Shown: positions 1,331 through 30,461 of the stretch, piece by piece
Layout: each line of letters begins with the position of its first letter
How positions within the stretch are numbered: the first letter of the stretch is position 1
Assembly (NCBI GenBank): GCA_014800815.1
Contig: JAAVFI010000053.1
Location: forward strand, 1 to 35,017
Direction of reading: 5' to 3'
DNA: 35,017 nucleotides
Source: Bacteroidales bacterium
GTDB taxonomy: Bacteria > Bacteroidota > Bacteroidia > Bacteroidales > Muribaculaceae
Position numbers and translations under genes: made by a program
The notes under the pieces: model-generated
What the model was told of the DNA's origin: nothing
Database searches by the model: none
What the model saw: the letters and a program-made list of their open reading frames with translations, nothing else

Positions 1331-3766
1331 TTACTTCACAGCGATTGTGATTGTAGCGGGCTTGCACCCCTTGGCCTTGGCAGTGAAGGTAATTTTTCCG
1401 GGAGTAGTGGAGCTTCTCACAATAGCTGTGGCTGCGCCGCTGAAGAGATCCATCTCCGGGTTCTGAAATGGTAACAAGCAAGTGGGATCGCCGTTGGCGG
1501 TTGCCTCAAATGCACCTTCTCCGGTGATGAAGAACTTCACCCGACGGGAATCTGTCGGTACTATATTACCGTCTTTATCAGCTACTTGAACGGTGATGTA
1601 AGCGAGGTCGGCGCCATTGGCGTCGAGACTCTCACGATTGGCAGAGAGTACAAGATGATGAGGTTTTCCTGCTGTGCGGAGGGTCTTTTCGGCAGCGACT
1701 TTTCCGGCATTGTCATAAGCGACAACTTTCACTTCTCCGGGTTCGTAGACGGTCTCATTCCACATCAGTCGGTAGCGATTCTGGAGCGTAGAATCGTTTT
1801 TCTCCCTCATGCCCTGACTCTTGCCGTTGATGAAAAGTTCAGCTTTTGGATAGGATGTGTAGACAAATACAGGCGTCACCTTACCCTCGCGACCTTTCCA
1901 GTTCCAATGGGGGAGGATGTGGAGAGTCGAATCCTTCTTGTTCCACTGCGAACGGTAGAGGTAGAAGCGGTCCTTAGGCAGCGAAGCCAGGTCGATGATT
2001 CCAAAGACGGAGCTATGACTCGGCCATGCATCATTGTCATAAGGTGAGGGCTCGCCGAGGTAATCGAAGCCGGTCCATACAAATTGTCCGAGCACCCAGG
2101 GCTGCTCATCCATGAAGAAATCGATGTCGGGGGTATTGGACCAGATACAGGTCTCATTGTCATAGCTTGACGACTGGTTATTTGAGTGCACTACCCCGTT
2201 ATGTTCGTTTACGAAAGACACCGGGAAGTGATAGACTCCGCGAGAGGAAACCGTAGATGCCGTCTCGGAGCCGAGAATCATGCGCTGAGGCAGTTTCTCA
2301 TAAGCAGTCTGATAATATTGCGGTTTATAGTTAAAGCCGGGTATATCGAGGGCTGCGGCGAAACCGTTGTCAAGCACAGCATCAATCTGCTCCATACCGC
2401 AAGTAATCGGGCGCGTAGGGTCCAGGCTCTTCACAATGTCGCGCAACATGACCAATTCGCTCACACCATCGGGACCGCACTGACTGGGCACCTCATTGCC
2501 AATAGACCACATCACTACCGACGGATTGTTGCGGAAGTGCTTCACCATGTTGGTTACATCCTTCTCAGCCCATTCGTTAAAGAAAGCGCCGTAGCCGTTG
2601 GGCGACTTGGGGCGGAAGCTCCAGTCGTCGAACGGCTCCACCATCAGCATTAGTCCGAGTTCGTCGCACAGCTCCACCAACTCCGGCGCGGGCATATTAT
2701 GCGACGTACGTATAGCGTTGGCTCCCATGTCTTTGAGCATTTCTATCTGATGACGGAGAGCGGAACGGTTGACGGCAGCGCCGAGAGGTCCGAGGTCATG
2801 GTGGTTGCATACGCCTTTGAATTTCGTCAGTTCGCCATTTAGGAAGAAACCTTGCTCAGGAATGTATTCAAGTTTGCGTACACCGAAACGAGTAGTATAA
2901 GTATCAGTTTCCGAGCCGTTTACAAATAATCTAGTCACAGCACTGTAAAGTGCGGGATTTTCAGGACTCCAGAGGTCGGGAGACTGAATGAGGAAGTTCT
3001 GGGTGAAATTCTGTCCATGAGCAACGTAAGCCGAACGGTTTTCTGCTACCTTTATGCCAGAAGGAGCGTATATCTCGGTCAGAACGTCTACTTTCTCCCC
3101 CTCGGCAGTGCCCGTAATGTCCATTTCGAGGCATACCGAAGCCTTTTCCTTTGATACAAATGGAGTTGTAACATACGTACCCCATGTCGGGATATGAACA
3201 CGATCGGTATTTATGAAGTGTACGTTGCGGTACAGCCCTGCTCCGGGATACCAGCGGGAAGCCCGTTCGAAGTTCTCCAATTCCACCACGAGGTCGTTAA
3301 GTCCGGGATGCACAGCGTCAGTCACGTCAACATAGAACGAGTTGTAGCCATACGGCCAATATATCACCTCCTTGCCGTTGACCATTACGCGGGCATTGCT
3401 CATAGCACCGTCGAAGACAAGGGTGAAGTTGCGACCGGTTGTATCAGGCACTTCGAGCTTGGTACGGTAAGTACCTTGCCCGATGAAGGGAAGTCCGCCT
3501 GTACGGCCTGTCTTTACCGTTTCATCTTTCTCCTTATTCTGCTCCACTGCTACGGTCTGAAGATCGTTGGCGCGGTCAAAAGGTCCGAAGATAGCCCAGT
3601 CGTGCGGCACGCGCACCGCCTGCCAATTGGTTGCAACAGCGGGGCGTCCATTTGTGAACTCCCAGCCTTCAGCGAGGATTGTTTCACAGCGTTCGCAATA
3701 AGCGTTGAATGCAAGGGTTACCGTCAGAACCAGCGCTACTAATATTTTATGTTTAACAGTCATCAT
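1331..3766 (-). CDS. GH2 family beta-galactosidase-like enzyme with DUF4982 and C-terminal Ig-like domain
   Basis: 811 aa, secreted (hydrophobic signal segment, residues 7-22). Domain order: GH2 N-terminal jelly roll (about 28-185), GH2 Ig-like (about 195-295), TIM barrel (about 300-600), DUF4982-like beta domain (about 625-695), and an invasin/Big-like domain (about 705-811). The acid/base is Glu425 in SIGNEVP and the nucleophile is Glu501 in ILGSETAST. The family hydrolyses terminal beta-galactosides or related beta-glycosides; this architecture is common in Bacteroides periplasmic enzymes. It starts 6 nt after the fecR stop, so it should be co-transcribed with the sigma/anti-sigma pair and not with the susC run. 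Two adjacent ATG codons are present at the start; the first is used here. The exact sugar cannot be read from the sequence. Confidence 0.92.
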   Translation of the reverse strand: MMTVKHKILVALVLTVTLAFNAYCERCETILAEGWEFTNGRPAVATNWQAVRVPHDWAIFGPFDRANDLQTVAVEQNKEKDETVKTGRTGGLPFIGQGTYRTKLEVPDTTGRNFTLVFDGAMSNARVMVNGKEVIYWPYGYNSFYVDVTDAVHPGLNDLVVELENFERASRWYPGAGLYRNVHFINTDRVHIPTWGTYVTTPFVSKEKASVCLEMDITGTAEGEKVDVLTEIYAPSGIKVAENRSAYVAHGQNFTQNFLIQSPDLWSPENPALYSAVTRLFVNGSETDTYTTRFGVRKLEYIPEQGFFLNGELTKFKGVCNHHDLGPLGAAVNRSALRHQIEMLKDMGANAIRTSHNMPAPELVELCDELGLMLMVEPFDDWSFRPKSPNGYGAFFNEWAEKDVTNMVKHFRNNPSVVMWSIGNEVPSQCGPDGVSELVMLRDIVKSLDPTRPITCGMEQIDAVLDNGFAAALDIPGFNYKPQYYQTAYEKLPQRMILGSETASTVSSRGVYHFPVSFVNEHNGVVHSNNQSSSYDNETCIWSNTPDIDFFMDEQPWVLGQFVWTGFDYLGEPSPYDNDAWPSHSSVFGIIDLASLPKDRFYLYRSQWNKKDSTLHILPHWNWKGREGKVTPVFVYTSYPKAELFINGKSQGMREKNDSTLQNRYRLMWNETVYEPGEVKVVAYDNAGKVAAEKTLRTAGKPHHLVLSANRESLDANGADLAYITVQVADKDGNIVPTDSRRVKFFITGEGAFEATANGDPTCLLPFQNPEMDLFSGAATAIVRSSTTPGKITFTAKAKGCKPATITIAVK

Positions 3767-3772
3767 GATTTT

Positions 3773-4792
3773 CTATTGCTGTACAGAAGGTCTGTAACTG
3801 CCGATTTTTATCTTAGTGGGGGCTTTGGTCGATTCGGAGTCCTGGACAAATTCGCAAGACACTTCCTTGCTCAGTTGCAGCATATATACAAACTCATGTA
3901 TATCTTCGCCATTCAGTATGATATGAAACATCTTGTCGGCCACCTTCGGTTCGAGTTCGATGTCCACATAGAACAGTTGCTGCAGGCGCGAGCAAATAGC
4001 CGAAAGAGGCTCTTCGTCAAATATAAGCATACCTTGCCGCCATGAGCAGTATTTATCCACATCCACATTTTCTGTCAGGGATACTCCTGCTGCTCCGAGG
4101 TCAAGATGGTCGGAAGGTTTCATAACCCACTTTTGCCCCTCTACCTCCACATCAACTTTTCCCTCAACCAGCGTCACGCTCTGAGTCGTGTCATAGGCAT
4201 TGACATTGAAGCGGGTGCCCGTGGCTGTCACCTGCAGCATTGAACTGTTGACATTAAACGGGTGCGATGCATCGGAATGTACATTGAAATACCCTTCACC
4301 AGAAAGGGATACATTTCGGCATGCCGATGCCGTAGGAATATAACTGAGTTGACTATTGGAATTAAGCCATACTTCCGACCCATCGGGAAGGGTGAAATGT
4401 GAGCTGCAACCATAGGCAGTCGATAGAGTCATTACCCCGACTTCTTCTACATCGTTGTCTCTGAGTGCCAAATAAATACTTACCACAGCAAGAGGCAAAA
4501 GCAAAAAAGCTGCCACGCGAGACCACGCGCGTAGAAAATGAGAGAAAAAAGTGCGCAGGCTACCGGGCTCCACACCTGCTTTGCGAGACAATCTTTTCCG
4601 GGCTTTCTCCAAATCAATCTCCTCCGACGAATATGCCGGATGTAGCGCATGCCAGATTTCAGCCTGCTCTCTGAAATAAATTTTATTATCCTCAGAAGCC
4701 TTCAGCCATTCGAGCAGAAGCATAGCTTCATCATCGGTGGCTTCGCGCGCAAGGAAACGTGCTATGATTATATTTATATCAGGATGTGTCAT
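3773..4792 (-). CDS. FecR family anti-sigma factor
   Basis: 339 aa. A cytoplasmic N-terminal region (1-88) contains the EAMLLLEWLKASEDN segment typical of the sigma-binding part. One membrane helix follows (about 92-110), then a periplasmic FecR domain (about 122-220, with LPDGSEVWLNSNS and GEGYFNV) and a C-terminal DUF4974 domain (about 256-333). It should hold the adjacent ECF sigma factor inactive until the STN domain of the outer-membrane SusC at 5580 contacts its periplasmic part. It lies 15 nt after the sigma gene and 6 nt before the GH2 gene, all on the minus strand. Family assignment is firm; the partner assignment rests on position. Confidence 0.95.
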   Translation of the reverse strand: MTHPDINIIIARFLAREATDDEAMLLLEWLKASEDNKIYFREQAEIWHALHPAYSSEEIDLEKARKRLSRKAGVEPGSLRTFFSHFLRAWSRVAAFLLLPLAVVSIYLALRDNDVEEVGVMTLSTAYGCSSHFTLPDGSEVWLNSNSQLSYIPTASACRNVSLSGEGYFNVHSDASHPFNVNSSMLQVTATGTRFNVNAYDTTQSVTLVEGKVDVEVEGQKWVMKPSDHLDLGAAGVSLTENVDVDKYCSWRQGMLIFDEEPLSAICSRLQQLFYVDIELEPKVADKMFHIILNGEDIHEFVYMLQLSKEVSCEFVQDSESTKAPTKIKIGSYRPSVQQ

Positions 4793-4807
4793 ATGTTCCT
4801 CAATTTA

Positions 4808-5392
4808 CTATAATAAAATTTCCGTTGCAATTATAAGGAGAATGATAATTTTGAAACGTTCAAGGTCAGCCTGAATGAAGCGCAAAGCTTTGCTTATACG
4901 CGCTTCGACTGTTTTTACTGAGATTTTGAGCCGTTCGGCAATTTCAGAATATTTCAGTTTTTCCTCGCGGCTAAGCATCAGCGTGAGCCTTACTTCAGGA
5001 GCCAGTTTTGCAAGAGATTGTTCTATAGCTTCGTTTAATTCATTAAAGCGAAGCACATCCTCCGGCGTATCCGACATCAGCTCCTCATAGACCTGAAGGT
5101 ACGATTCTTCGACCTTATTATGCTTCAGCTTGTTCAAGGCAAGATTCTGCACCAATGTGGTAAGATATGAGCGCAACGAAGATTTTATTTCCAGCGATTT
5201 TCGTGTATGCCAGAATTGCGTGAATACATCTTGCACAATATCTTCACAAGTATCCCGGTCCTGTATGAATCTGCCCGCAAAAAGAACGAGAAAGTAATAA
5301 TACCGACGAAAAATCACAAAGAATGCCTCATGGCTGTCCGTTTTCAAGGCAGCCATCAGAAGTGCTTCATCATCAAATACTTTATGAGTCAT
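4808..5392 (-). CDS. ECF RNA polymerase sigma factor (sigma-70 family, FecR-paired)
   Basis: 194 aa. Region 2 spans about 22-90 (EDIVQDVFTQFW at 50-61 is the core-binding and -10 melting segment). Region 4 spans about 126-175, with the helix-turn-helix around YSEIAERLKISVKTVEARISKAL. The protein ends in a hydrophobic tail (residues 181-194). It probably activates the divergent susC promoter when released by the adjacent FecR protein. It is the first gene of a three-gene minus-strand operon (sigma, FecR, GH2) and has a plausible constitutive promoter at 5409-5440. Confidence 0.95.
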   Translation of the reverse strand: MTHKVFDDEALLMAALKTDSHEAFFVIFRRYYYFLVLFAGRFIQDRDTCEDIVQDVFTQFWHTRKSLEIKSSLRSYLTTLVQNLALNKLKHNKVEESYLQVYEELMSDTPEDVLRFNELNEAIEQSLAKLAPEVRLTLMLSREEKLKYSEIAERLKISVKTVEARISKALRFIQADLERFKIIILLIIATEILL

Positions 5393-5408
5393 CGTCCGAA
5401 AATTTGCG

Positions 5409-5440
5409 CAAATGTATATTATAAATTTTGTGTTTGCAAG
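5409..5440 (-). promoter_or_regulatory. Promoter of the sigma/fecR/GH2 operon
   Basis: On the minus strand, TACATTTG (5416-5409) fits the -7 element TAnnTTTG. CTTG (5440-5437) lies 20 nt upstream and fits the -33 element with one mismatch. The start site would fall near 5402, about 10 nt before the sigma ATG, so the leader is very short. Confidence 0.5.
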
Positions 5441-5476
5441 GGATATTTAAAAAAAATCATTTTTTGAAAAATTCTT

Positions 5477-5484
5477 TAATTTTG
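5477..5484 (+). promoter_or_regulatory. -7 element of the susC promoter
   Basis: TAATTTTG fits the Bacteroidota -7 pattern. No TTTG occurs 19-21 nt upstream (the nearest, 5463-5466, is only 10 nt away). A weak -33 region is what would be expected if transcription needs the ECF sigma factor, but the real ECF recognition site cannot be named from one sequence. Confidence 0.35.
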
Positions 5485-5523
5485 CGATAGGGTATTCCAT
5501 ATCCAAATTGTCATAGAATTATA

Positions 5524-5545
5524 CGCCGCGAAAAAAATCACGGCG
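5524..5545 (+). other. Stem-loop in the susC leader
   Basis: CGCCG (5524-5528) and CGGCG (5541-5545) can form a 5-bp GC stem around a 12-nt A-rich loop, 34 nt before the susC ATG. It could affect mRNA stability or translation. A short stem like this can also arise by chance. Confidence 0.3.
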
Positions 5546-5579
5546 AAACCTTAAATCAGACTATAAATCAATCCAAAAA

Positions 5580-8500
5580 ATGAATCACAATTTCAAACAA
5601 AAAAAATGGCTCACTTTCAATCTGCCGCGATGCGTAGTATTGATGGCGACCTTAATGGTGATGCTCTGCTCAAGTGCATACGCTTCAGCCGACGACCGGA
5701 ACGTGACTCTGGATGTCTCCCGGGCGAAAATGGGCAATGTTCTGAACTCAATCGGGATGCAGACAGGCTACAGTTTTTTCTACAGCACCGAGATGCTCGA
5801 CGATTGCGGACCCGTGACAATAAAAGTTGTCGACCAACCTTTAGACAAAGTCCTCAACCAGCTGCTGCCTCCTCACGGATTGGCCTACTCAATCAACAAG
5901 AAACAGATTGTTTTGAGCAAGAACAATGAATCGTCCGCAAAATTAAAAGCCGGGCAAGAAGTGACGGTGACCGGTACAGTCACCGATACCGAAGGAGAGC
6001 CATTGATTGGTGTTTCTGTAGTCAACGAAACCAACTCAAAAGGTGTAACCACCGACCTCGACGGCAACTATAGCATCAAAGTACCCGTCGGAGCAACACT
6101 GATATTCTCTTATGTGGGCTGTACATCGGTGAAGAGTAAAATCGTATCAGACAAGCCTCTGGATATCACAATGTCGTTGGACGACAACCTTCTCTCGGAA
6201 GTGGTCGTTGTCGGCTATGGCACACAGAAGAAAGTGAACCTCACCGGCGCCGTATCAGTTATCGACGGAAAAGACCTCGAAGGACGCTCAGCCAACAACA
6301 TGACCCAGCTCCTCCAGGGTGCGGTCCCCAATATGAACATCAAGCTCTCAGGCGGTCGTCCCGGAGAGGGCGGCTCCATCAATATCCGTGGTGTACAGAC
6401 TCTTAGCGGTTCGTCTTCAGGCATGAATCCTCTTACACTCATCGACGGTGTCGAAGGAGACATCAACGCCGTAAACCCCAACGATGTGGAGAGTATTTCA
6501 GTACTTCGCGACGCCTCTGCTGCTGCAATTTATGGAGCGCGTGCCGCTTTCGGCGTTATTCTTCTCACCACCAAAAACGGACAGAAAGGTAAATCATCCA
6601 TAAGCTATTCAGGCAGCTATTCTTTCGGAGCCCCGACAGTCTCCCGCGACTATGAAACCCGCGGCTACTACTCAGCGGCTATCAACGACATGTTCTTCAA
6701 ATCCTATGCCGGTATCAACTATACAACCTACGATGATGAGGACTACTATGAGCTCTGGATACGCAGAAATGACAAGACCGAGAATCCCGAGCGTCCGTGG
6801 GTAATGATCAAAGACGGAGAATATCGCTACTATGGTAACACTGACTGGTGGCACTATCTCTACGACGAATCGCGTCCGACATTAGACCAGAACGTAAGCG
6901 TTCAGGGTGGCAACGAGATGATCAACTACTACATCTCCGGCGGTTACCACAGCCAGGATGGTGTAATGGCACATAACACCGATAAATTCGCAAAATACGA
7001 TTTTCGCACTAAAGTAAGTGCTGCGATCGCTCCCTGGCTGCGTCTGAGCAACAACACCAGCTACCACAATCAGGCTTACACCTATAATCTGCCGGTTTCG
7101 GTGAATTCTTTCATAGAGAGCGCCGACATACATCTTCTGGCATCGGATGTCCCGGTCAACCCCGACGGAACAGCCGTGTATATGCCTTCCAGCCACAGCG
7201 GCGGTTATTCGCTTGCAAACGGTGTCACAGCCGCCATGCTCAATGGCAACAACCGTTCAAAGGACCGCAACTCCACATTCTCAACCACATTCGAGGTGCA
7301 GATTGATCCCATAAAGCATCTCAATGTTACTGCCAATTACACCTATCTTACATATAACCTTTGGAATCAGAACCGCAAATCGCAGTTTGAGTATTCCAAG
7401 AATCCCGGAGAAATCTTAACCGCCGAGCTCAAAGGGATATCCGAAAACTCTCTTTTTCGCACCAATACCGAGAGTTACTATCATGCCGCCAATGCCTTTG
7501 CCACATACGACAACGGTTGGAACGGCAACAATGTAAAGGCTACAGCCGGTATCAACTACGAACGCCGCCACTATCAGTACACCTCTATTTATCGCGACGG
7601 AATGGTCAACGACAAGCTTGACGACTTCAATCTGGCAACCGGCGATATCATTGAACTGCATGGCGGTCAGGAAGCATACTCTCTGTTCGGTTTCTTCTGC
7701 CGTGCCAATTACGACTATAAAGGACGCTATCTGGCAGAGTTCAGCGGCCGATACGATGGTTCATCGCGTTTCCGCCGCAATCATCGCTACGCTTTCTTCC
7801 CCTCCGGATCACTCGGCTGGCGTTTCAGCGAGGAAGATTTCTTCAAAGACATACACCAGTGGTGGAACAACGGCAAACTCCGCGTTTCGTACGGACAGCT
7901 CGGTAATCAGGCCGGAGTCGGCTACTACGACTACATTCAGACCATTACTACCGGCTCATTGATCAGCTATACATTCGACGGCGTTTCCAACGCAACTTCT
8001 TCAAGCGTAAGCGCTCCCAATGCCGGAGACCTAACCTGGGAAAAGGTAATTACCTACAACATCGGTCTCGACCTCGGCTTCCTCAACAATCGCCTTTCGT
8101 TCACCGGCGATATGTACATCCGCGACACCAACGACATGCTTTGCGCCTCACAGGATCTTCCCGGTGTGTACGGTGCTTCAGCTCCGAAAATGAACGCAGC
8201 CAACTTGCGCACCAAAGGCTGGGAAATGTCATTGGAATGGAAAGACGGATTCAACTTGGGCAACGACCGCTTCAATTATCAGATTATGGTAGCGCTGGCC
8301 GACAATACATCCAAGGTCCGGAAATACTATAATCCGCAGAAAATTCTCGGTACTCCCTACGAGGGTCAGGAACTCGGTGAAATATGGGGATTCAAGACCG
8401 ACGGATACTTCGCCACCGATGAGGAGGCTGCCAATTACCAGGTAGATCAGGCTTACGTCAACAACCTGCTCAACGGTGCAGCCCTTGATCCGGGACTTCA

Positions 8501-9143
8501 CGCCGGCGACCTCAAATATCTTGACCTTGACGGCGACGGTAAGATTCTCCCGACTCAGACAAGCGAAGATATCAAGGATATGGTCAAGATCGGCAACGCC
8601 CTACCCCGCTATACCTATTCATTCCGTCTGTCCGCCCAATACTTCGGGTTCGACCTTTCAGCCTTCTTCCAGGGTGTAGGACACCAGGATTGGTATCCGG
8701 GTCACGAGACTCAGCTCTATTGGGGCCCCTACTCCCGTCCTTATATATCGTTCCTTCCGAAGGACTTCCTCAAAGACGTCTGGAGCGTAGATAATCCTGA
8801 TGCCAAATTCCCACGCCCCCGCGGCTATGTGGCAATGAACAACGACCGCGAGCTCTCGCGCATCAACGACCGATATCTTGAAAATGTAGCTTACCTCCGT
8901 CTGAAAAACCTGACAATTGGCTACACCTTACCGCGAAAATGGCTGAATGCCATTCATTTCACCAACCTGCGTGTATATTTCAGCGGTGAAAACCTGTTCT
9001 ACTGCACTCCTCTGCGCTCACGCTATATCGACCCCGAGCAGGCCGGTGCCACAACTACCTGGCGCTATACCACCGACACCAGCGTACGCGCAAGCTACCC
9101 CTATTATAAGCTGTACACCTTCGGTCTGCAGGCTACTTTCTGA
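5580..9143 (+). CDS. SusC-like TonB-dependent outer-membrane transporter with STN domain
   Basis: 1187 aa. A signal sequence (about 1-36) is followed by an STN/secretin-TonB N-terminal domain (about 42-114), a carboxypeptidase-regulatory-like beta-sandwich (about 128-200, GTVTDTEGEPLIGVSV), a TonB-box-like segment EVVVVGYG (207-214), a plug (about 218-335, with LIDGVEGDINAVNPNDVES and RDASAAAIYGARAAFG) and a 22-strand type barrel ending in a terminal Phe. It imports oligosaccharides together with the SusD partner, powered by TonB-ExbBD. The STN domain is the part that in related systems touches a FecR anti-sigma factor, which fits the divergent sigma/FecR pair. An extracellular LDLDGDGKI loop may bind calcium. 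The susD gene follows after 37 nt. Confidence 0.97.
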   Translation: MNHNFKQKKWLTFNLPRCVVLMATLMVMLCSSAYASADDRNVTLDVSRAKMGNVLNSIGMQTGYSFFYSTEMLDDCGPVTIKVVDQPLDKVLNQLLPPHGLAYSINKKQIVLSKNNESSAKLKAGQEVTVTGTVTDTEGEPLIGVSVVNETNSKGVTTDLDGNYSIKVPVGATLIFSYVGCTSVKSKIVSDKPLDITMSLDDNLLSEVVVVGYGTQKKVNLTGAVSVIDGKDLEGRSANNMTQLLQGAVPNMNIKLSGGRPGEGGSINIRGVQTLSGSSSGMNPLTLIDGVEGDINAVNPNDVESISVLRDASAAAIYGARAAFGVILLTTKNGQKGKSSISYSGSYSFGAPTVSRDYETRGYYSAAINDMFFKSYAGINYTTYDDEDYYELWIRRNDKTENPERPWVMIKDGEYRYYGNTDWWHYLYDESRPTLDQNVSVQGGNEMINYYISGGYHSQDGVMAHNTDKFAKYDFRTKVSAAIAPWLRLSNNTSYHNQAYTYNLPVSVNSFIESADIHLLASDVPVNPDGTAVYMPSSHSGGYSLANGVTAAMLNGNNRSKDRNSTFSTTFEVQIDPIKHLNVTANYTYLTYNLWNQNRKSQFEYSKNPGEILTAELKGISENSLFRTNTESYYHAANAFATYDNGWNGNNVKATAGINYERRHYQYTSIYRDGMVNDKLDDFNLATGDIIELHGGQEAYSLFGFFCRANYDYKGRYLAEFSGRYDGSSRFRRNHRYAFFPSGSLGWRFSEEDFFKDIHQWWNNGKLRVSYGQLGNQAGVGYYDYIQTITTGSLISYTFDGVSNATSSSVSAPNAGDLTWEKVITYNIGLDLGFLNNRLSFTGDMYIRDTNDMLCASQDLPGVYGASAPKMNAANLRTKGWEMSLEWKDGFNLGNDRFNYQIMVALADNTSKVRKYYNPQKILGTPYEGQELGEIWGFKTDGYFATDEEAANYQVDQAYVNNLLNGAALDPGLHAGDLKYLDLDGDGKILPTQTSEDIKDMVKIGNALPRYTYSFRLSAQYFGFDLSAFFQGVGHQDWYPGHETQLYWGPYSRPYISFLPKDFLKDVWSVDNPDAKFPRPRGYVAMNNDRELSRINDRYLENVAYLRLKNLTIGYTLPRKWLNAIHFTNLRVYFSGENLFYCTPLRSRYIDPEQAGATTTWRYTTDTSVRASYPYYKLYTFGLQATF

Positions 9144-9180
9144 GATTTACCTATCAACTACCAATCAGCCCACAAAAGCA

Positions 9181-10923: not shown

Positions 10924-10932
10924 TCAGATACA

Positions 10933-12759: not shown

Positions 12760-12803
12760 AACATCTAACTTTAAATTAGTACCAATTAATCAACTTTTAC
12801 ATT

Positions 12804-13682: not shown

Positions 13683-13699
13683 TCTAAGATTCTGAAAAC

Positions 13700-15562: not shown

Positions 15563-15580
15563 TTAAGTTTTTATACTAAT

Positions 15581-15629: not shown

Positions 15630-15648
15630 TCATTCAAAAATTCGATTT

Positions 15649-16680: not shown

Positions 16681-16685
16681 TCGCT

Positions 16686-19642
<2,957 letters not shown>

Positions 19643-19666
19643 AAAAATATACAATCTCAACCAGAC

Positions 19667-21955: not shown

Positions 21956-21968
21956 ACCCAACATAATC

Positions 21969-23366
21969 ATGAAACATATCAGCACAATACGCCTGAGCTT
22001 GGCTGCTTTAGGCACTGCAGTAGCACTTTCAGCCTCTGCACTCCCTCCAAAATATATCTTCCTGTATATCGGCGATGGTATGGGCATGGGACCTTCCATG
22101 GCCGCCGAGATGTACAACCGTCAGGTGCTTAAGAACGATACACCCATCACCATGATGCAGTTTCCCGTAGCAGGATTCTGTATGACATACAGCGCCAGTT
22201 CGCCCGTAACCGACTCTGCGGCAGCCGGCACAGCCCTGGCAACCGGCACCAAGACCAAGAATGAAATGCTTGGCATGAACCCCGACTCCATAGCGGTATA
22301 TTCCATCGCCTCCACCCTCAAGGCCAAAGGTTATGGTATCGGCGATATCACAACGGTGGCTCCCGATGATGCCACACCTGGTGCATTCTACGCCCATGTC
22401 CCTAACCGCAATATGACGTATGAGATTGGCGTTCAGGCAGCTGAAAGCGGATTTGAATTTATAGGCGGCGGTGGCTGGCGAACCCCGGCCAAGGAAGGTA
22501 AGAAGTCTCTGTTCGATGTTTTCGAAGAAAACAATGTGAAGGTGGTGTTCGGCCCCGACTCTGCTGCCTGCATTGGTAATGCGGAGCGAGTAGTAATGGT
22601 CAACCATTGGGGCACGGATCCAAGCAATATGGGATACTCTATCGACTCTATACCCGGCACCCTCACCCTACCCTTTCTCACCAACCAATGCCTGGATCAC
22701 TTGAAACGAGTATCGCCTGACGCATTCTTCATGATGGTTGAGGGCGGCAACATCGACCACGCCCTTCACTCCAACGACGGTGGTACAGCCGTCAAGGAAA
22801 TCCTGAATTTCAACAATGCCCTTGATATTGCTTATCAGTTCTATAAGGAGCATCCCGATGAGACTCTTATTGTAGTCACTGCCGACCACGACACCGGAGG
22901 CATGACCATAGGCAATCCTACCCTGAGCTATAACGCTCGCCTGCAATTCATCGACTCTCAGAAAATATCCAAGCTGGAATTCCAGAATATGCTCACACGT
23001 TCGGCACAGAAGGGCGAGAAATGCACTTGGGATGAAATGAAAGAGATTCTCATGGAAAAATTCGGATTCTGGCGCGGAGTACCTGTCACCGAGAAGCAAG
23101 AGGAAGCGCTCAAAAAAGAGTTCAACGACATGATAGCACAGCGAAATCTGGCCGACCAAAAAACTCTGTACGCAACCTTCAACGGCTTTGTCGCCAAAGT
23201 ATTCAAGGTGTTCAACGACGCTGCCGGAATCGGATTCGTCACCTCAAGCCACACCGGCAACCCTGTTCCCGTTTTTGCTGTGGGTGTAGGAGCCGACTCC
23301 TTCAAGAATCTCAACAACAACATTGAGATTCCTCAAAAGATAATGGAATTAGTGGAGAGCAAATAG
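21969..23366 (+). CDS. Alkaline phosphatase (PhoA superfamily)
   Basis: 465 aa from the ATG at 21969; an earlier in-frame ATG at 21903 lies inside the GH3 gene and would mask the signal peptide (1-24). The PhoA-type metal site is complete: Asp36 in IGDGMGMG, nucleophile Ser83 in TDSAAAGTA, Glu258, Asp263 and His267 in VEGGNIDHALHSND, Asp306-His307 in TADHDTGG, and His428 in SSHTGNPVPV. It hydrolyses phosphomonoesters in the periplasm. It sits 13 nt after the GH3 gene and 7 nt before the esterase, so it belongs to the PUL operon. With two phosphodiester glycosidases upstream, removal of phosphate from sugar phosphates freed from a phosphodiester glycan is the likely job, more so than general phosphate scavenging. 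Confidence 0.93.
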   Translation: MKHISTIRLSLAALGTAVALSASALPPKYIFLYIGDGMGMGPSMAAEMYNRQVLKNDTPITMMQFPVAGFCMTYSASSPVTDSAAAGTALATGTKTKNEMLGMNPDSIAVYSIASTLKAKGYGIGDITTVAPDDATPGAFYAHVPNRNMTYEIGVQAAESGFEFIGGGGWRTPAKEGKKSLFDVFEENNVKVVFGPDSAACIGNAERVVMVNHWGTDPSNMGYSIDSIPGTLTLPFLTNQCLDHLKRVSPDAFFMMVEGGNIDHALHSNDGGTAVKEILNFNNALDIAYQFYKEHPDETLIVVTADHDTGGMTIGNPTLSYNARLQFIDSQKISKLEFQNMLTRSAQKGEKCTWDEMKEILMEKFGFWRGVPVTEKQEEALKKEFNDMIAQRNLADQKTLYATFNGFVAKVFKVFNDAAGIGFVTSSHTGNPVPVFAVGVGADSFKNLNNNIEIPQKIMELVESK

Positions 23367-23373
23367 CAAGATT

Positions 23374-25296
23374 ATGAAAAAAAGAAATGTCTTGCTTCTG
23401 GTCGCAGCCCTTGCAGTTGGTTCAGCAAACGCAAGCATTACACTGCCATCCTATATCACAGACAATATGATTGTTCAGCAGAACAGCATCTTGACTGTGG
23501 AGGGGTATGCTGCGCCCGGTTCCAAGGTCACTGTACGGCCCGGGTGGACCAACAAGCCGCTGACTGCGAAAGCCGATGGCAACGGTTCCTTTACATTAAA
23601 AGTCAAAACTCCTCCGGCCGGAGGTCCTTACTCGATTGCTTTTGAGGATACCGATGGTACGGTCCGACTTGAAAACATCCTTTCGGGAGAAGTATGGCTT
23701 TGCTCAGGACAGTCCAATATGGAGTTCCCCGTCGAGGGCTGGGGCAAAGCCATGGATTACGACCATGAAGTTGCCACAGCACAGCATCCCGACATACGGC
23801 TGCTGAAAGTGAAACAAAATATGGCATTCTCCCCGAAGGAAGATGTGGAAGTCGACGGTGAAGGATGGCAGATTTGCTCTCCGGCAAGCGTCGCTGATTT
23901 TTCTGCCGTAGCTTATTTCTTTGCTCGGGAACTATCGGAGGAACTGAAGGTGCCTGTGGGAGTGATTGACACCTCTTATGGTGGTACACCGGCTGAGGCA
24001 TGGACTTCGGCGGAAGCTCTTGGTGCCATTCCCGGCTTCGAGCAGCAACTGACCGCCCTCAAAGAGGCCGGCTATGATGCCGATACACTTTACGAGAATT
24101 ACGATAAGAAGATTGAAGCCTGGATGGCACTCGCGAAATCCTATAAAGTTGACTTTGACATGGCCGTAATGCAGTCTGGCGACAACTGGAAAGAGATCGC
24201 CGTTCCCGGCTATTGGGAACAGAGCGTACTGCCTGATTTTGACGGGACTGTCTGCCTCCAGCGCACCATCGAGATACCTGCCGACAAGGCCGGGAAAGTG
24301 CTTGAACTGAAATTCCAGGCTATCGATGATGAGGATGAGACTTATTTCAACGGCCGGCTCGTGGGTAAGTGCTCCTGGCATAACGCGCCGCGAAATTATT
24401 CCGTACCGGGCGACCTCGTCAAGGCGGGTACGAATGTAATTTCCGTCAAAGTGACCGACTTTGGAGCAGAAGGCGGCATCGTTCCCGGTGTGGCGGAGGC
24501 CGTTGTTGATGGTTTGTCCATCCCGCTTTCGGGAACGTGGCAATACTCGATTCTGAAAGATTTCTCACAGTTGCCGCCTAAGCCTGTCTCTCCGCGATGG
24601 CCGAACTATCCGACCGTCCTCTATAATGCAATGATCTCACCCTTGAAAAATATGCCCTTGAAAGGCGTGCTTTGGTATCAGGGTTGCGCCAATGTAGGAC
24701 GCGACCGGCAATATGAATCGCTGTTCAAGGCCCTTATCAACGATTGGCGCAAATTATGGGGCGAACAGACTCCGTTCTATTTCGTTCAGCTGGCCGGCTA
24801 CCTGCAACCTCTGCCGGTGCAACCCAATTCACCTTGGGCCGCTCTTCGGAATGCACAGGCAAAGGCGCTTGAATTGGAGAATACAGGTATGGCTGTCGCA
24901 ATCGACCTCGGCAACCCGGTCGACATCCATCCCAAAAACAAGAAGGATGTTGCACATAGGCTCGCCCTCATAGCCTTGAATCGCGATTATGGGAAGGATT
25001 GCATTTATCAATCTCCCCGCTGCATCTCTGTCAAACCCTCAGGTAATTCCTTAGAACTCAAATTTGACGCACCGATTCATTCCTCCACCAACGCCATCAC
25101 AGGATTTATCATTGCAGGTGCTGACGGCGTATTCACTACCGCCACTCCGGTCGCCGTGGACGACTGCACTCTCCTCATATCCGCGCCTTCAGTCTCCAAA
25201 CCCGCATTTGTGCGCTACAACTGGGCCGACGATCCCTGTGGAAATCTGTATGGCCCAACCGGATTACCGGTGGCTCCTTTCGCCAACGATAAATAA
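23374..25296 (+). CDS. Sialate O-acetylesterase-like SGNH esterase with inserted beta-sandwich
   Basis: 640 aa with a signal peptide ending ANA (1-20). An N-terminal Ig-like strand domain (about 21-100) leads into the SGNH hydrolase: nucleophile Ser114 in CSGQSNMEFP, IDTSYGGTPAEAW (198-210), WYQG (434-437), and Asp517/His519 in VDIHPKNK. A GH2-like jelly roll (about 268-392) is inserted in the catalytic domain. Family members remove O-acetyl groups from sialic acids or from other sugars. No sialidase or sialic acid catabolism gene is in the window, so de-acetylation of another sugar is more likely. The position that is often Glu in WYQGE is Cys438 here (WYQGCANVG), a variant I believe occurs in Bacteroidota members. 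Confidence 0.88.
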   Translation: MKKRNVLLLVAALAVGSANASITLPSYITDNMIVQQNSILTVEGYAAPGSKVTVRPGWTNKPLTAKADGNGSFTLKVKTPPAGGPYSIAFEDTDGTVRLENILSGEVWLCSGQSNMEFPVEGWGKAMDYDHEVATAQHPDIRLLKVKQNMAFSPKEDVEVDGEGWQICSPASVADFSAVAYFFARELSEELKVPVGVIDTSYGGTPAEAWTSAEALGAIPGFEQQLTALKEAGYDADTLYENYDKKIEAWMALAKSYKVDFDMAVMQSGDNWKEIAVPGYWEQSVLPDFDGTVCLQRTIEIPADKAGKVLELKFQAIDDEDETYFNGRLVGKCSWHNAPRNYSVPGDLVKAGTNVISVKVTDFGAEGGIVPGVAEAVVDGLSIPLSGTWQYSILKDFSQLPPKPVSPRWPNYPTVLYNAMISPLKNMPLKGVLWYQGCANVGRDRQYESLFKALINDWRKLWGEQTPFYFVQLAGYLQPLPVQPNSPWAALRNAQAKALELENTGMAVAIDLGNPVDIHPKNKKDVAHRLALIALNRDYGKDCIYQSPRCISVKPSGNSLELKFDAPIHSSTNAITGFIIAGADGVFTTATPVAVDDCTLLISAPSVSKPAFVRYNWADDPCGNLYGPTGLPVAPFANDK

Positions 25297-25297
25297 T

Positions 25298-25321
25298 TCA
25301 ACTTTCACAAGCAAAAGTTGA
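25298..25321 (+). other. Stem-loop between esterase and GH2 genes
   Basis: TCAACTTT (25298-25305) and AAAGTTGA (25314-25321) form an 8-bp AU-rich stem with an 8-nt loop in the 57-nt gap after the esterase stop. No U-run follows. It may be an mRNA stability or processing element. Confidence 0.35.
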
Positions 25322-25353
25322 TGTTGAACTTACAAAACTTTAAAAGAAACAAT

Positions 25354-27138
25354 ATGAGAAAGATACTTCTTGCACTGACTCTCCTCATAGGCCTCTACGC
25401 TTTTGCGTGGCAACCGGCCGGCAACCATATCCGCACGCGTTGGGCTTCCGATATTAACCCTGAGAAAGTATGGGATAAGTACCCGCGTCCGCAAATGGTA
25501 AGGGCCGACTGGAGCAATCTGAACGGCTTATGGCAATACGCCATAACACCCAAGGCCGCTTCGAAACCCACCCGCTTTGAAGGCGAAATACTCGTGCCAT
25601 TCGCTGTGGAATCGTCTCTCTCGGGTGTCGGTCGTACCGTCGGTGCTGACTCTGCACTATGGTATCAGCGCACATTCACAGTTCCTCAAAACTGGAAAGG
25701 CAAAGACGTACTGCTTAATTTCGGTGCTATTGACTGGAAGAGCGACATTTGGGTAAATGACATCAAAGTGGGCTCACATACAGGCGGATATACTCCATTC
25801 AGCCTCAATATCACAAAGGCCCTCAAGAAAGGGGATAATACACTGACCGTGCGTGTCTGGGACCCCACCGACAAAGGCCCCCAGCCCTGCGGAAAACAGA
25901 TTACCAAGCCGGAGATAATTTGGTACACTCCCGTTACCGGCATCTGGCAGACTGTATGGATGGAACCTGTCAACGCAAATCATATTGAGTCGCTCAAGAT
26001 TCTCCCCGACATAGACGACAATACATTGAGCGTTCAAGCCCTCGCCACAAACTCTCCGGGCATCGTAACGGTAAAGGTACTTGACAATGGACGCGTAGTA
26101 GCCACAGGCAAATCGGTCAATGGCGAAACCGTAACTATACAGATGCCTGCCGACGCGAAACTATGGACACCCGAGAGCCCCTACGTATATGATCTTGAGG
26201 TGTCACTCGACAATACCGACATAGTACGCAGCTATGCAGCAATGCGCAAATTCAGCACCGGCCAAGACTCCAATGGAATCGTCCGCCTTATGCTTAACAA
26301 CAATCCTATATTCCAATTCGGCCCGCTCGACCAGGGTTGGTGGCCCGACGGATTGTACACAGCTCCTACCTACGAAGCAATGGTCTATGATATAGACAAG
26401 ACCAAGGACCTTGGTTTCAATACAATCCGCAAACACATCAAAGTCGAACCGGCTTTATGGTATGAATATTGCGACCGAAACGGAATAATCGTATGGCAGG
26501 ACATGCCCAGCGGCGATGCGCATCCCGAATGGCAGCCTAACTCTTACTTCAATGGTAAAGAGTTGGTGCGAACTCCCGAAAGCGAAGCTAACTATCGCAA
26601 AGAATGGAAAGAAATCATTGATGCTCTTTACAACTTCCCTTGCATTGGCATGTGGATTCCTTTCAACGAACGTTGGGGTCAGTTTAAAACCGAAGAAATA
26701 GCTGCCTGGACAAAGGCTTATGACCCTTCAAGAGTTCTCAATCCTGCAAGCGGCGGAAACTTCTATCCCGTTGGCGATGTCCTGGATGTTCATCATTATC
26801 CCGCGCCGAGAATTACTCTGACAGATCCTCTGCGTGCTACAGTACTGGGTGAATACGGCGGTATAGGACTGGCTGTCGAGGGCCATTTATGGCGTCCCGA
26901 CCAGAACTGGGGCTATGTGCAGTACAAAACCACAGGCGAAGTCACCGATGAATATGTCAATTTTGCCAACCAGCTTGCAGAGCAGGCAAAGAAAAACTTT
27001 ACCGGAGCAATCTATACACAGACCACCGATGTGGAAATGGAAGTCAACGGTCTGATGACCTACGATCGCGAAATGGTCAAAGTCGATGAAGAACGCGTAC
27101 GCAAAGCCAATCAGGAAGTAATCAACTCTGTCAAGTAG
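25354..27138 (+). CDS. GH2 family beta-galactosidase-like enzyme
   Basis: 594 aa from the ATG at 25354; an in-frame ATG at 25318 lies next to a stem-loop and would add 12 residues before a clean signal peptide (1-18). Compact three-domain GH2: jelly roll (about 45-205), Ig-like (about 210-300), TIM barrel (about 305-594). The acid/base is Glu439 in IPFNERWGQ and the nucleophile is Glu500 in VLGEYGG. There is no DUF4982 or extra C-terminal domain, unlike the GH2 at 1331, so the two are distinct subfamilies. It cleaves terminal beta-galactosides or similar in the periplasm. It begins 57 nt after the esterase and ends 6 nt before GH3. The exact sugar specificity is not readable. Confidence 0.9.
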   Translation: MRKILLALTLLIGLYAFAWQPAGNHIRTRWASDINPEKVWDKYPRPQMVRADWSNLNGLWQYAITPKAASKPTRFEGEILVPFAVESSLSGVGRTVGADSALWYQRTFTVPQNWKGKDVLLNFGAIDWKSDIWVNDIKVGSHTGGYTPFSLNITKALKKGDNTLTVRVWDPTDKGPQPCGKQITKPEIIWYTPVTGIWQTVWMEPVNANHIESLKILPDIDDNTLSVQALATNSPGIVTVKVLDNGRVVATGKSVNGETVTIQMPADAKLWTPESPYVYDLEVSLDNTDIVRSYAAMRKFSTGQDSNGIVRLMLNNNPIFQFGPLDQGWWPDGLYTAPTYEAMVYDIDKTKDLGFNTIRKHIKVEPALWYEYCDRNGIIVWQDMPSGDAHPEWQPNSYFNGKELVRTPESEANYRKEWKEIIDALYNFPCIGMWIPFNERWGQFKTEEIAAWTKAYDPSRVLNPASGGNFYPVGDVLDVHHYPAPRITLTDPLRATVLGEYGGIGLAVEGHLWRPDQNWGYVQYKTTGEVTDEYVNFANQLAEQAKKNFTGAIYTQTTDVEMEVNGLMTYDREMVKVDEERVRKANQEVINSVK

Positions 27139-27144
27139 CCCTAT

Positions 27145-29304
27145 ATGAGATTCGCTGCTATATTTCTTCTATTGATACCTTTGCGAATACTCGCGCAGGA
27201 AGAAGCGATCTATCTCAATGTAGATGCTCCTATTGAACTGCGGGTGGAGGATGCACTGTCGCGAATGACTTTGGAAGAGAAAGTCGATATGTGCCACGGA
27301 CATAGCAAATTCACATCTGCAGGTGTTCCTCGGCTCGGTATTCCACAGATTTGGTGGAGCGACGGCCCGCATGGAGTCCGGGCGGAATTCCTCGCTGATA
27401 AGTATGTGTATGACGACCGGCTCGATGACTTTATCACCGCTTTCCCTGCTCTCACTGCCCTTGCCGCCACATGGAATCCTGAACTTGCGTACGAGTACGG
27501 TCAGGCTCTGGGAGACGAAGCTCTCTATAGAGGCAAAACCGTGATGCTTGGTCCGGGACTAAACATTTGTCGCACGCCGTTGAACGGTCGTAATTTTGAG
27601 TACATGGGTGAGGACCCTATGCTCTGCGCCGAAATGGCTATTCCTTACATACAAGGTCTGCAGAGCAAAGGTGTGGCTGCGTGCGTCAAACATTTCGCAC
27701 TCAACAACCAGGAAAATTGGCGTCTTGACATTGATGTCCAATGCTCCGACCGGGCGCTTCATGAAATCTACCTTCCGGCCTTCAAAAGAGCTGTCGCCGA
27801 AGGTGGCGCATGGGCTCTGATGGGTGGTTACAACCGTGTCAGAGGCGAGCATGCAAGCCACAACAAGCTTCTTCTTTGTGATATTCTTCGCCGCCAATGG
27901 AACTATGACGGCGTGGTTGTATCTGACTGGGGTGGTGCCCACGATACCTTTCAGGCCGCCAATAATGGATTGGATGTGGAAATGGGTACTTCGTCGCCGT
28001 ACAATAAGAATATTCTGGCAGATCCATATCTGGAGGCGATGCGTTCCGGGCTTATTGATTCAACCACTGTAAACGAAAAGGTACGCAACATTTTACGTCT
28101 GATTTTCCGCACGTCTATGAGCGGCAAGCGAGGTTTCGGAGCCATTTGCACACCTGCCCACTACGAACTCTGCAGACAAATAGGTGAAGAGTCAATTGTT
28201 TTGCTGAAAAACAATGGTATTCTGCCGTTGGAACCGAATCAAAAACGCCGTATACTGGTCGTTGGCGAGAATGCAACTCTTCCTCTCAACCTTGCGGGCG
28301 GTTCTTCCGAGCTGAAAGTCAAGGATATGTATTCACCGCTTGATGCAATCAGAAATATCTATGGCGAAGAAGTAGTGTATACTCCGGGATATAAATCAGG
28401 CCCGTACACCTACAATGTTGAGAATCCTGTTCCTCAGGAAGTCACTGAATCTCTTCACAGAGAAGCCGTAGCAATGGCACGGCAGGCTGATGTGGTAATC
28501 TATATCGGCGGATTAAACAAAAACTCCTATCAGGATTGCGAAAACCGCGACCGCTACACTTATAATCTCATTTTCGGCCAGGACTCTCTCATTAATGCTC
28601 TCGCCGATGTGAATCCCAATATTATTGTAGCTAATATCTCGGGGGCTCCTTTTGCAATGCCTTGGATAGACAAGGTACCGGCTGTAATTCAGAGTTGGTA
28701 TCTTGGCACTATGATCGGCCCGGCAATGGCCGACGTAATTTCGGGGCGAGCCAATCCCTCCGGCAAACTACCATTTTCATTCCCTAAGCGAATTGAAGAT
28801 TGCGGAGCACATGCCTTGGGACAGCTGTCATATCCCGGTGTCGAGGATGCAGATGGCCGACACCATCAGGAATATCTTGATGACATAATGGTAGGCTATA
28901 GATGGTATGATACCAAAAAGATTCCGGCCTTGTTTCCATTTGGATATGGTCTGAGTTATACAACTTTCAAATGCGGCAAACCCACTCTTGAAAAGCATGG
29001 ACAGAACTGGACCGTTGATGTGCCTGTGACAAATACAGGTAAAACCGACGGTAAAGAAACTCTGCAGTTGTATGTCTGTGATGTCAAATCAAGACTACCG
29101 CGGCCGGCCAAAGAACTCAAAGCCTTCTCAAAAGTGTACCTTAAACCCGGCGAGACGAAAAATGTAATACTCACTCTCAGCCCTGACGACCTCAAGTACT
29201 ATGATCCGGAAGTGAGCGATTGGGTGCTCGAGCCCGGAAAATTCCAGCTGCTTATCGGTACGTCCTCCACAAATATCTCCCATAAAATTAATATCGAAAT
29301 CTGA
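27145..29304 (+). CDS. GH3 family beta-glycosidase (beta-glucosidase/xylosidase type)
   Basis: 719 aa with a signal peptide ending ILA-Q (1-17). IWWSDGPHGVRAEF (69-82), GPGLNICRTPLNGRNFEYMGEDP (about 136-158), VKHFALNNQE (181-190) and the nucleophile Asp261 in GVVVSDWGG. The second domain carries a probable acid/base Glu in CENRDR. The C-terminal fibronectin-III-like domain follows FPFGYGLSYTTF. It is a broad beta-glucosidase/xylosidase-type GH3, different from the BglX-like enzyme at 19667. It starts 6 nt after the GH2 gene and ends 20 nt before the mutarotase. It probably removes terminal beta-linked glucose (or xylose) in the periplasm. Confidence 0.92.
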   Translation: MRFAAIFLLLIPLRILAQEEAIYLNVDAPIELRVEDALSRMTLEEKVDMCHGHSKFTSAGVPRLGIPQIWWSDGPHGVRAEFLADKYVYDDRLDDFITAFPALTALAATWNPELAYEYGQALGDEALYRGKTVMLGPGLNICRTPLNGRNFEYMGEDPMLCAEMAIPYIQGLQSKGVAACVKHFALNNQENWRLDIDVQCSDRALHEIYLPAFKRAVAEGGAWALMGGYNRVRGEHASHNKLLLCDILRRQWNYDGVVVSDWGGAHDTFQAANNGLDVEMGTSSPYNKNILADPYLEAMRSGLIDSTTVNEKVRNILRLIFRTSMSGKRGFGAICTPAHYELCRQIGEESIVLLKNNGILPLEPNQKRRILVVGENATLPLNLAGGSSELKVKDMYSPLDAIRNIYGEEVVYTPGYKSGPYTYNVENPVPQEVTESLHREAVAMARQADVVIYIGGLNKNSYQDCENRDRYTYNLIFGQDSLINALADVNPNIIVANISGAPFAMPWIDKVPAVIQSWYLGTMIGPAMADVISGRANPSGKLPFSFPKRIEDCGAHALGQLSYPGVEDADGRHHQEYLDDIMVGYRWYDTKKIPALFPFGYGLSYTTFKCGKPTLEKHGQNWTVDVPVTNTGKTDGKETLQLYVCDVKSRLPRPAKELKAFSKVYLKPGETKNVILTLSPDDLKYYDPEVSDWVLEPGKFQLLIGTSSTNISHKINIEI

Positions 29305-29324
29305 TAGTGACTATCTTACTCAGC

Positions 29325-30461
29325 ATGAAAAAAGTATTGAACGCTATAGCCATCGCATTACTTCTTGCAGGATGCCGCCCTGCCGAACCGGCATTAACCG
29401 AGTCCGGCCTCAGTTTCGACGATTTCATCGCCGAGGTCGATGGCAAATCAACAGCCCTCTACAAACTCAATAATGCCAACGGACTCGAGGCATGCATCAC
29501 CAACTATGGAGGGCGCTTAGTCTCGCTCATGGTACCTGATCGCGACGGTCATCTTCGCGATATAGTGCTTGGACACCAAACCATTGCAGATTATATTAAT
29601 AATATCGACGGCAATTTCGGTGCGATTATCGGGCGCTACGGCAACCGCATAAATCAAGGTCGTTTCGCCATAGACAGCGTAGACTATCAGTTGCCTCGGA
29701 ATAACTTCGGGCACTGCCTTCATGGAGGCCCCATAGGTTTCCACCACTCCGTATGGGATGCGGTTCAGCCTGACGACTCAACCCTTGTGCTAAGACTCTC
29801 TTCTCCCGATGGTGAAGCCGGGTTCCCCGGAAATGTAGATGTTGAGGTCACATACACCCTGACTGCGGATAACGCACTCAACATCTCATACCGAGCCACC
29901 ACTGATAAACCGACCATTCTCAACCTCACAAACCATTCATACTTCAATTTGAGCGGCGACCCGACTAAGGATATTTCAAAGGAGATAATATGGTTCGATG
30001 CACCGGCTTTCACACCCATCGATTCAACCTTTATGACTACCGGCGAAATACTGTCTGTAGCAGCGACGCCGTTCGACTTCACTCAACCCAAAGCTATCGG
30101 TCAGGACATCAATGTAGATGACGAGCAACTCAAAAACGGGCGTGGATACGACCACAATATGGTGCTGAGAGAAGGTCGCGACACTTCCGCACCGGCAGCA
30201 GTACTTGAGGATGAAGAGTCGGGCATAAGAATGGAGGTATTCACCGCCGAGCCCGGGATTCAATTCTATACCGGTAATTTCTTGGATGGCTCAGTTGCTG
30301 GCAAGCGTGGCATCGCTTACCCTCATCGTGCAGCGATATGCCTCGAATCACAACATTTTCCAGACAGCCCCAATAAGCCTGACTGGCCTTCGGTAACGGT
30401 GCGTCCCGGAGAACAATACACAAGTCATTGCAGCTACCGCTTCTCTTGCCTTGAGAACTAA
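29325..30461 (+). CDS. Aldose 1-epimerase (galactose mutarotase), lipoprotein
   Basis: 378 aa from the ATG at 29325 (an upstream in-frame ATG at 29307 adds six residues before the signal). Lipobox LLAGC with Cys17. Mutarotase motifs: GRYGNRI (103-109), CLHGG (131-135), LTNHSYFNL with the likely acid His204, YDHN (275-278), and CLESQHFPDSPNKP with the likely base Glu341. It interconverts alpha and beta anomers of galactose or glucose. As an envelope lipoprotein it would act on sugars freed by the GH97, GH2 and GH3 enzymes; GH97 inverters release the beta anomer. It is the last gene of the plus-strand PUL run, before a stem-loop at 30480-30514. Confidence 0.93.
   Translation: MKKVLNAIAIALLLAGCRPAEPALTESGLSFDDFIAEVDGKSTALYKLNNANGLEACITNYGGRLVSLMVPDRDGHLRDIVLGHQTIADYINNIDGNFGAIIGRYGNRINQGRFAIDSVDYQLPRNNFGHCLHGGPIGFHHSVWDAVQPDDSTLVLRLSSPDGEAGFPGNVDVEVTYTLTADNALNISYRATTDKPTILNLTNHSYFNLSGDPTKDISKEIIWFDAPAFTPIDSTFMTTGEILSVAATPFDFTQPKAIGQDINVDDEQLKNGRGYDHNMVLREGRDTSAPAAVLEDEESGIRMEVFTAEPGIQFYTGNFLDGSVAGKRGIAYPHRAAICLESQHFPDSPNKPDWPSVTVRPGEQYTSHCSYRFSCLEN

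Follow-up and report, generated by a model that had tools for sequence, protein, structure and literature searches.

A candidate polysaccharide utilization locus for sugar-1-phosphodiester glycans, with NAGPA-domain proteins and an alkaline phosphatase, in a Muribaculaceae genome

We analysed a stretch of 35,017 nucleotides (the window; contig JAAVFI010000053.1, positions 1 to 35,017, assembly GCA_014800815.1) from a Bacteroidales bacterium of the family Muribaculaceae. Positions 1331-30461 hold a polysaccharide utilization locus (PUL) in which NAGPA-domain proteins and an alkaline phosphatase (ALP) accompany a SusC/SusD pair and several glycosidases. Open reading frame (ORF) calls and a Pfam scan find 17 genes there, all present and open. 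Fourteen of these, from susC to a mutarotase gene, are co-directional on the plus strand with intergenic gaps of -4 to 86 bp, so that the SusC/SusD pair and co-directional glycoside hydrolase (GH) genes by which a PUL is recognized are both in place; a divergent trio lies on the minus strand. An earlier description made from the letters of the DNA alone (the sequence-only reading) had listed the same 17 genes, with SusCD, glycosidases, esterase and mutarotase, and the ORF and Pfam calls agree with it, except that three gene starts are corrected to the likely positions 9181 (SusD), 15649 (NAGPA1) and 21969 (ALP).

The minus-strand trio encodes a first GH2 protein with DUF4982 and C5 domains (GH2a, 1331-3766), which is probably outside the conserved core described below, a FecR-type anti-sigma factor (3773-4792) and an ECF sigma factor (4808-5392), all identified by Pfam. 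The plus-strand genes begin with a SusC-type TonB-dependent transporter with an STN domain (5580-9143; Pfam) and a SusD-type lipoprotein (9181-10923; Pfam, lipobox LSSC). Three surface proteins follow: NAGPA3 (10933-12759), a lipoprotein with a degenerate NAGPA domain (Pfam, motif lost) and a GLUG module, likely a glycan-binding pseudoenzyme; a fimbrillin-like, putative surface protein (12804-13682; Pfam Mfa_like_1); and GLUG2 (13700-15562), a lipoprotein by its lipobox, whose C-terminal GLUG module aligns with that of NAGPA3. NAGPA1 (15649-16680; Pfam, motif, lipobox) is a lipoprotein, and NAGPA2 (16686-17543; Pfam, predicted model) has a signal peptide-like N-terminus. Then come GH97 (17540-19642), a relative of SusB-type alpha-glucosidases, and GH3a (19667-21955), of the beta-glucosidase type, both placed by Pfam and by phmmer against the PDB; the PhoA-type ALP (21969-23366; Pfam, PDB phmmer); an SGNH (SASA) carbohydrate acetylesterase (23374-25296; Pfam, and PDB phmmer matches 9h4u, 9ega and 7kmm); GH2b (25318-27138), nearest in a PDB search to 7sf2 and the beta-D-galactofuranosidase 9j6n (GH2_18); GH3b (27145-29304; Pfam); and an aldose 1-epimerase (mutarotase) that is also a lipoprotein (29307-30461; Pfam, lipobox). 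The locus resembles other SusCD PULs of Bacteroidota in its ECF/FecR regulation, SusCD pair, surface lipoproteins and glycoside hydrolases, but differs from them in having NAGPA and a phosphatase in its core.

The sequence-only reading had distinguished two NAGPA-domain proteins with an intact motif from a third that looked inactive, and this distinction stands. Scored against Pfam NAGPA (PF09992, cut-off 25 bits), ORFs 15598-16680 (NAGPA1) and 16686-17543 (NAGPA2) reach 78 and 91 bits; the two proteins are 40% identical, have a stretch with HPRTIVA and the DGGGS motif in common, and both keep MDGGGSTTM. NAGPA3 scores a weak 45 bits, with ALDSDNAATI at the motif position and NKR where the other two have DGR. 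The predicted model of NAGPA2 (m1d5c91a5f60b; pLDDT 88, confident) supports a NAGPA fold: its matches at E <= 0.001 are zebrafish, frog and guinea-pig NAGPA, 3ohg, and the uncharacterised 6ozd and 5h3k, with nothing else. NAGPA2 thus shares Pfam domain, fold and DGGGS motif with the animal lysosomal uncovering enzyme NAGPA (6pki, 6pky, 6u11), but it is only 15-17% identical in the structural alignment and is encoded in a bacterial SusCD operon. BACOVA_00430 of Bacteroides ovatus (3ohg), a DUF2233 protein, shares the fold with a TM-score of 0.71, but at 18% identity, and its PDB title names no function. Close homologues of NAGPA2 were found only in its own genome, both among 149 genomes of the family (next best 71 bits) and among 393 of the order (next best 89 bits).

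NAGPA3 looks like an enzyme turned surface glycan-binding protein, a putative role suggested by the loss of the motif in a protein that has nevertheless been kept, and by the occurrence in Sphingobacterium of proteins in which a GLUG-like module comes after an intact-motif NAGPA domain (seen in the sequences from loci L110 and L114). In the copy of NAGPA3 from a related species (see below) the NAGPA half is 75% identical and the motif is likewise gone (ALDYDDAATM), with dN/dS of ~0.08, a value that is qualitative only because dS is saturated. The C-terminal GLUG halves of NAGPA3 and GLUG2 are very similar in alignment and their N-terminal halves differ; the shared halves are also kept in the related species. 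The GLUG-like module gave a BLAST match in all six Sphingobacterium loci, and Pfam Glug scored nothing in L110; a further NAGPA-GLUG protein (L123) has a partly eroded motif, LTGGNS.

NAGPA domains also occur elsewhere in other settings. The same genome has a second SusCD locus (L087, G000:C24:64500-84400) encoding a 549-aa NAGPA protein (ORF 9104-10753), its SusC and SusD being 33% and 26% identical to those of the window. Another member of the family (G004:C51:20607-31116) has a tandem array of five NAGPA-like matches in ORFs of 815-882 aa, and a 1069-aa protein (L240, G256:C9, 12742-15951) combines GH123 and NAGPA domains, with GH2 and rhamnosidase genes adjoining.

The ALP had been described as a complete PhoA-type phosphatase, and so it is: its full domain aligns with solved alkaline phosphatases (Pfam, PDB phmmer), with 3a52 through TDSAA, TADHDTGG and SSHTG, which we take to be the catalytic and metal-binding motifs. 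ALP matches are present in 126 of the 149 family genomes, 118 of which have a single copy. The window genome has two, the second (G000:C75) being 57% identical to the first; the locus ALP is therefore an additional copy, and the possibility that it is the sole one of its genome was rejected. A genome of the same genus (G088) has a single ALP, at 9221-10747 of L084 (G088:C3:90500-110400), which is 77-78% identical to the locus copy and lies outside any SusCD match. The locus copy may derive from it or be its relative, and since the G088 gene stands in another gene setting, this type of ALP is not confined to the locus. Elsewhere (L090, G355:C7) genes for an amidohydrolase, NAGPA, a calcineurin-like phosphoesterase and ALP lie in a row, two of them identified by Pfam and two by BLAST, with no SusCD in the surrounding 20 kb; L092 (G500:C3) has the same gene order, as judged by BLAST and gene length only.

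Loci with NAGPA were collected with two short peptide patterns from one genome per species across 84,980 species, which gave 74 loci; because only these two patterns were used, failure to appear in this set means little. One of them is a closely similar locus in another species (L104/L239, contig JAAVDU010000042.1, genome G536). Its products are 84% (SusC), 82% (SusD), 77% (NAGPA3), 64% (Mfa), 77% (GLUG2), 81% (NAGPA1), 75% (NAGPA2), 87% (GH97), 79% (ALP), 83% (GH3b), 76% (ECF) and 64-66% (FecR) identical to those of the window, and dN/dS between the genes is low, again read qualitatively only, with dS saturated. The contig ends in a second GH3 gene. No GH3a lies between GH97 and ALP, neither SASA nor GH2b lies between ALP and GH3b, and other genes stand beside FecR in place of a GH2. 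With window positions 17540-34604 as the query, a DNA search of the whole of G536 brought up neither a close GH3a nor a close GH2b; on other contigs there are distant relatives of SASA (53%), mutarotase (55%) and GH2b (35%).

The shared core is thus ECF-FecR-SusCD-three surface proteins-NAGPA1-NAGPA2-GH97-ALP-GH3b. It had been proposed that absence of the NAGPA and phosphatase genes from an otherwise conserved version of the locus would speak against a joint function; in the one near-complete copy available both are kept, and they therefore belong to the conserved core. The suggestion that the substrate is O-acetylated and requires the GH2 enzymes fared less well, as SASA, GH2b, GH3a and GH2a were not seen in the sister locus as far as its contig reaches.

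All 74 loci were compared by tblastn (E 1e-10) with window proteins and with phosphatase, transporter, EEP and GDSL queries taken from L168, L111 and L139, themselves among the 74; many loci end at contig ends and the set may include near-copies. SusC or SusD is matched in 33 loci (distant matches such as the 24% of L154 included), the GLUG module in 38, a histidine phosphatase in 41, a Major Facilitator Superfamily (MFS) transporter in 15, an EEP phosphodiesterase in 15 and a GDSL esterase in 20. GH97 is matched in four, GH3 in two, GH2b in two, SASA in none, and ALP in one, which is L104 itself. The histidine phosphatase is MINPP-like and lies within 50 bp of the NAGPA match, on either strand, in 38 of the 41 loci. 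Counted with a greedy ORF caller and motif patterns of our own, 31 loci have a single ORF with both motifs, 22 in the order NAGPA-MINPP and nine in the order MINPP-NAGPA. The MINPP phytases 7r5y and 4fdt are the closest solved relatives of the fused phosphatase domain in PDB profile searches; they differ from it in that the domain in the rumen relatives is joined to NAGPA, in either order, and the window has none. Pfam His_Phos_2 was found in 10 of 11 members, though only at E <= 0.1 (best 6.8e-05). A model of moderate quality for the L168 fusion (mc3b4b4d97be7; pLDDT 80, pTM 0.64) resembles 7r5y and, in separate matches, 3ohg and the animal NAGPA structures. The MFS query, from L111, has PgtP, GlpT and UhpC as its best NCBIfam matches, all below their cut-offs for this one protein.

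That the two domains are fused in both orders would be difficult to account for if the NAGPA and phosphatase reactions did not take place in succession on the same substrate, and we regard the pairing, as read from these gene arrangements, as convincing. In the window the PhoA-type ALP seems to take the place of MINPP. That NAGPA and phosphatase act together on a phosphodiester glycan, as the sequence-only reading had supposed, is consistent with their retention in the sister copy, and the Bacteroidales fusions lend the idea independent support. As a separate observation, a gene for a GDPD phosphodiesterase with DUF4996 (L106:3910-4878) directly follows a MINPP-NAGPA fusion gene.

SusD relatives were also taken from the 393 order genomes regardless of NAGPA, giving 75 SusD places. 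These were compared with 67 of 72 EEP matches from one search and 15 of ~150 from another (82 places), and with 15 of 45 NAGPA matches; those left out were on other contigs, too far from SusDs or upstream (checked by eye). The second EEP search reaches E ~4e-11, so that its genomes are undercounted. With the window excluded, EEP or NAGPA is encoded downstream on the SusD strand, at a distance of up to 12 kb, for at least 10 of the 15 SusDs at >=42% identity, and, among the matches listed, for seven of 20 at 38-41%, two of 14 at 35-37% and none of 25 at 29-34%; in the window's own genome the figure is two of 17 other SusDs. At E ~4e-11 the top bin has nine rather than 10 of 15, the EEP matches of G000:C71 being weaker. 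Of the five misses in this bin, two are on contigs that end 1.4 and 4.3 kb past SusD, one (G403) has GDPD, and two (G255, G013) showed none of the three. Members of the lineage also encode GH89, GH20, GH31 and GDPD.

Because EEP and NAGPA become commoner nearer the window's SusD, this SusCD transporter lineage leans to phosphodiester-bearing substrates, NAGPA being one of several possible openers; the EEP proteins presumably act on the imported glycan. This weaker association was adopted after the idea of a SusCD type specific to NAGPA was rejected, many SusD relatives at 43-50% identity, two of them in the window's own genome, having no NAGPA. A single origin of the NAGPA-bearing loci was also discarded, as it required seven label changes on the SusD tree, although this tree mixed NAGPA-fetched loci with others and is no fair test; two NAGPA-fetched loci (L152, L153) were labelled 'none' on it, their NAGPA having been missed by the ORF caller. 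Two further SusCD loci of the window's own genome (L230 and L234, on C71 and C13) have SusDs 44-48% like that of the window and EEP genes downstream, and the C71 locus also has a GH31 gene with DUF4886.

Taking these results together, we think it probable that the locus is an ECF/anti-sigma-regulated SusCD PUL for a glycan linked or decorated by sugar-1-phosphodiester bonds. The enzymatic activities, the order of steps, the cell locations and the phosphodiester substrate are what we infer. The surface lipoproteins, including the dead NAGPA3 as a binder, would capture the glycan. NAGPA1 at the cell surface and NAGPA2, probably in the periplasm, would split the sugar-1-phosphodiester by hydrolysis, so that the sugar is released and the adjacent residue keeps a phosphomonoester; the locus ALP could then take off the phosphate, and GH97 and GH3, together with GH2b and the esterase in the window strain, would strip the remaining sugars.

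Several observations weigh against this interpretation. PhoA-type enzymes are unspecific, and the locus ALP could serve general phosphate supply. NAGPA2 might cut another bond, being so distant from animal NAGPA. Six SusCD-NAGPA loci of Sphingobacterium have no ALP or MINPP match within ~10 kb on either side, so that NAGPA is not always paired with such a phosphatase. Neither the SusD relative of G255 nor that of G013 has EEP or NAGPA close by, and a scan of four of the neighbouring genes gave no phosphoesterase. Only two species were found to have the whole locus, and the 74 loci, having been fetched by NAGPA patterns, are uninformative on how often SusCD and NAGPA occur together.

The glycosidases bear on what the substrate may be. 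GH97 matches 2d73 with 967 bits and 3a24 with 178 bits over its full length (PDB phmmer), which places it, by sequence, with the SusB type rather than the retaining galactosidase type; a SusB-like GH97 (56%) also accompanies a NAGPA-phosphatase locus elsewhere (L128). GH3a and GH3b are both beta-glucosidase-like in the same search. Together with the GH2 enzymes, these would suffice for phosphate-free glycosides, and the locus could be an ordinary glucan or galactan PUL in which the NAGPA domains are plain glycosidases or binders and the ALP scavenges phosphate, the more so as our literature searches turned up no bacterial NAGPA of this type with a demonstrated activity. We consider this unlikely, because it leaves unexplained the NAGPA-MINPP fusions in both orders, the organophosphate-type transporters and the phosphodiesterase gradient among SusD relatives, and ALP is inside the operon in both species.

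Within the interpretation as a phosphodiester-glycan PUL, a microbial surface phosphopolysaccharide fits best as the substrate class; GH2b and the esterase do not fix the exact polymer, since both are outside the shared core. A sharper form would be a surface phosphopolysaccharide of Gram-positive bacteria that contains galactofuranose and glucose-1-phosphate. In the wall polysaccharide of Lactococcus lactis, the repeat contains alpha-Glc-1-P and beta-Galf and is branched with alpha-Glc (PMC7831098). Besides the SusB-like GH97, this proposal would account for GH2b, which is similar over its full length to 9j6m/9j6n (475 bits over 577 query residues); PMC12243196 assigns 9j6m, the twin entry of the Streptomyces beta-D-galactofuranosidase 9j6n, to GH2_18. 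A GH2b homologue (49%) adjoins SusCD-NAGPA and a calcineurin-type phosphoesterase in L137, and the rumen locus L168 has a GH78-type rhamnosidase and GH20. Against this, the sister genome has no close GH2b, L137 is the only one of the 73 other loci with a homologue near 50% (the match in L113 is 25%), rhamnosidase and GH20 are not among the Pfam matches of the window, and the GH2 group containing GH2_18 also takes arabinofuranosides besides galactofuranosides (PMC12243196). A substrate of this lactococcal type is therefore one possibility of low probability.

Less probable still is the detachment of wall polymers, in which NAGPA would cut the GlcNAc-1-P-6-MurNAc linkage unit and ALP would clear the leftover MurNAc-6-phosphate. 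A GlcNAc-1-P linkage unit joins wall polymer to MurNAc (PMC7831098) and is chemically near the substrate of animal NAGPA, which is among the nearest solved relatives; the Pfam scan, however, found no peptidoglycan enzymes in the window. SusCD systems, moreover, are expected to import soluble oligosaccharides. Yeast phosphomannan contains Man-1-P-6-Man diesters, but a yeast mannan or mucin substrate, already held less likely by the sequence-only reading, was rejected and is very improbable, since the Pfam scan assigned none of the 17 genes to a family specific to mannan or mucin.

Surface polysaccharides with phosphodiester links, such as capsules and teichoic or wall polymers, are common among microbes, and to our knowledge no PUL that opens their phosphodiester bond has been described. 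Our literature searches found no account of NAGPA in a PUL, which is weak evidence of absence because most subscription journals were outside the search. Beyond the window, the evidence is about evenly balanced for a class of Bacteroidota PULs for sugar-1-phosphodiester glycans, in which NAGPA passes its product to a phosphomonoesterase (a PhoA-type neighbour, or the same NAGPA-MINPP polypeptide in either order) and worn-out NAGPA is reused as a surface binder, as part of a broader SusCD lineage with a leaning towards several phosphodiesterase families. If true, this would name the missing enzyme family for phosphodiester opening and its partner, predict bifunctional NAGPA-phosphatases, offer enzymes for cutting phosphopolysaccharides and provide a testable substrate class for these bacterial NAGPA proteins.

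In the window itself, a tRNA search found none, and a promoter and terminator scan of positions 1-20000 gave counts close to those of shuffled sequences. The limits of the locus are set by unrelated genes on both sides: a DUF1848 gene on one, and on the other a malate/lactate dehydrogenase gene, a nucleotidyltransferase gene and an ORF taken for ArgS by eye.

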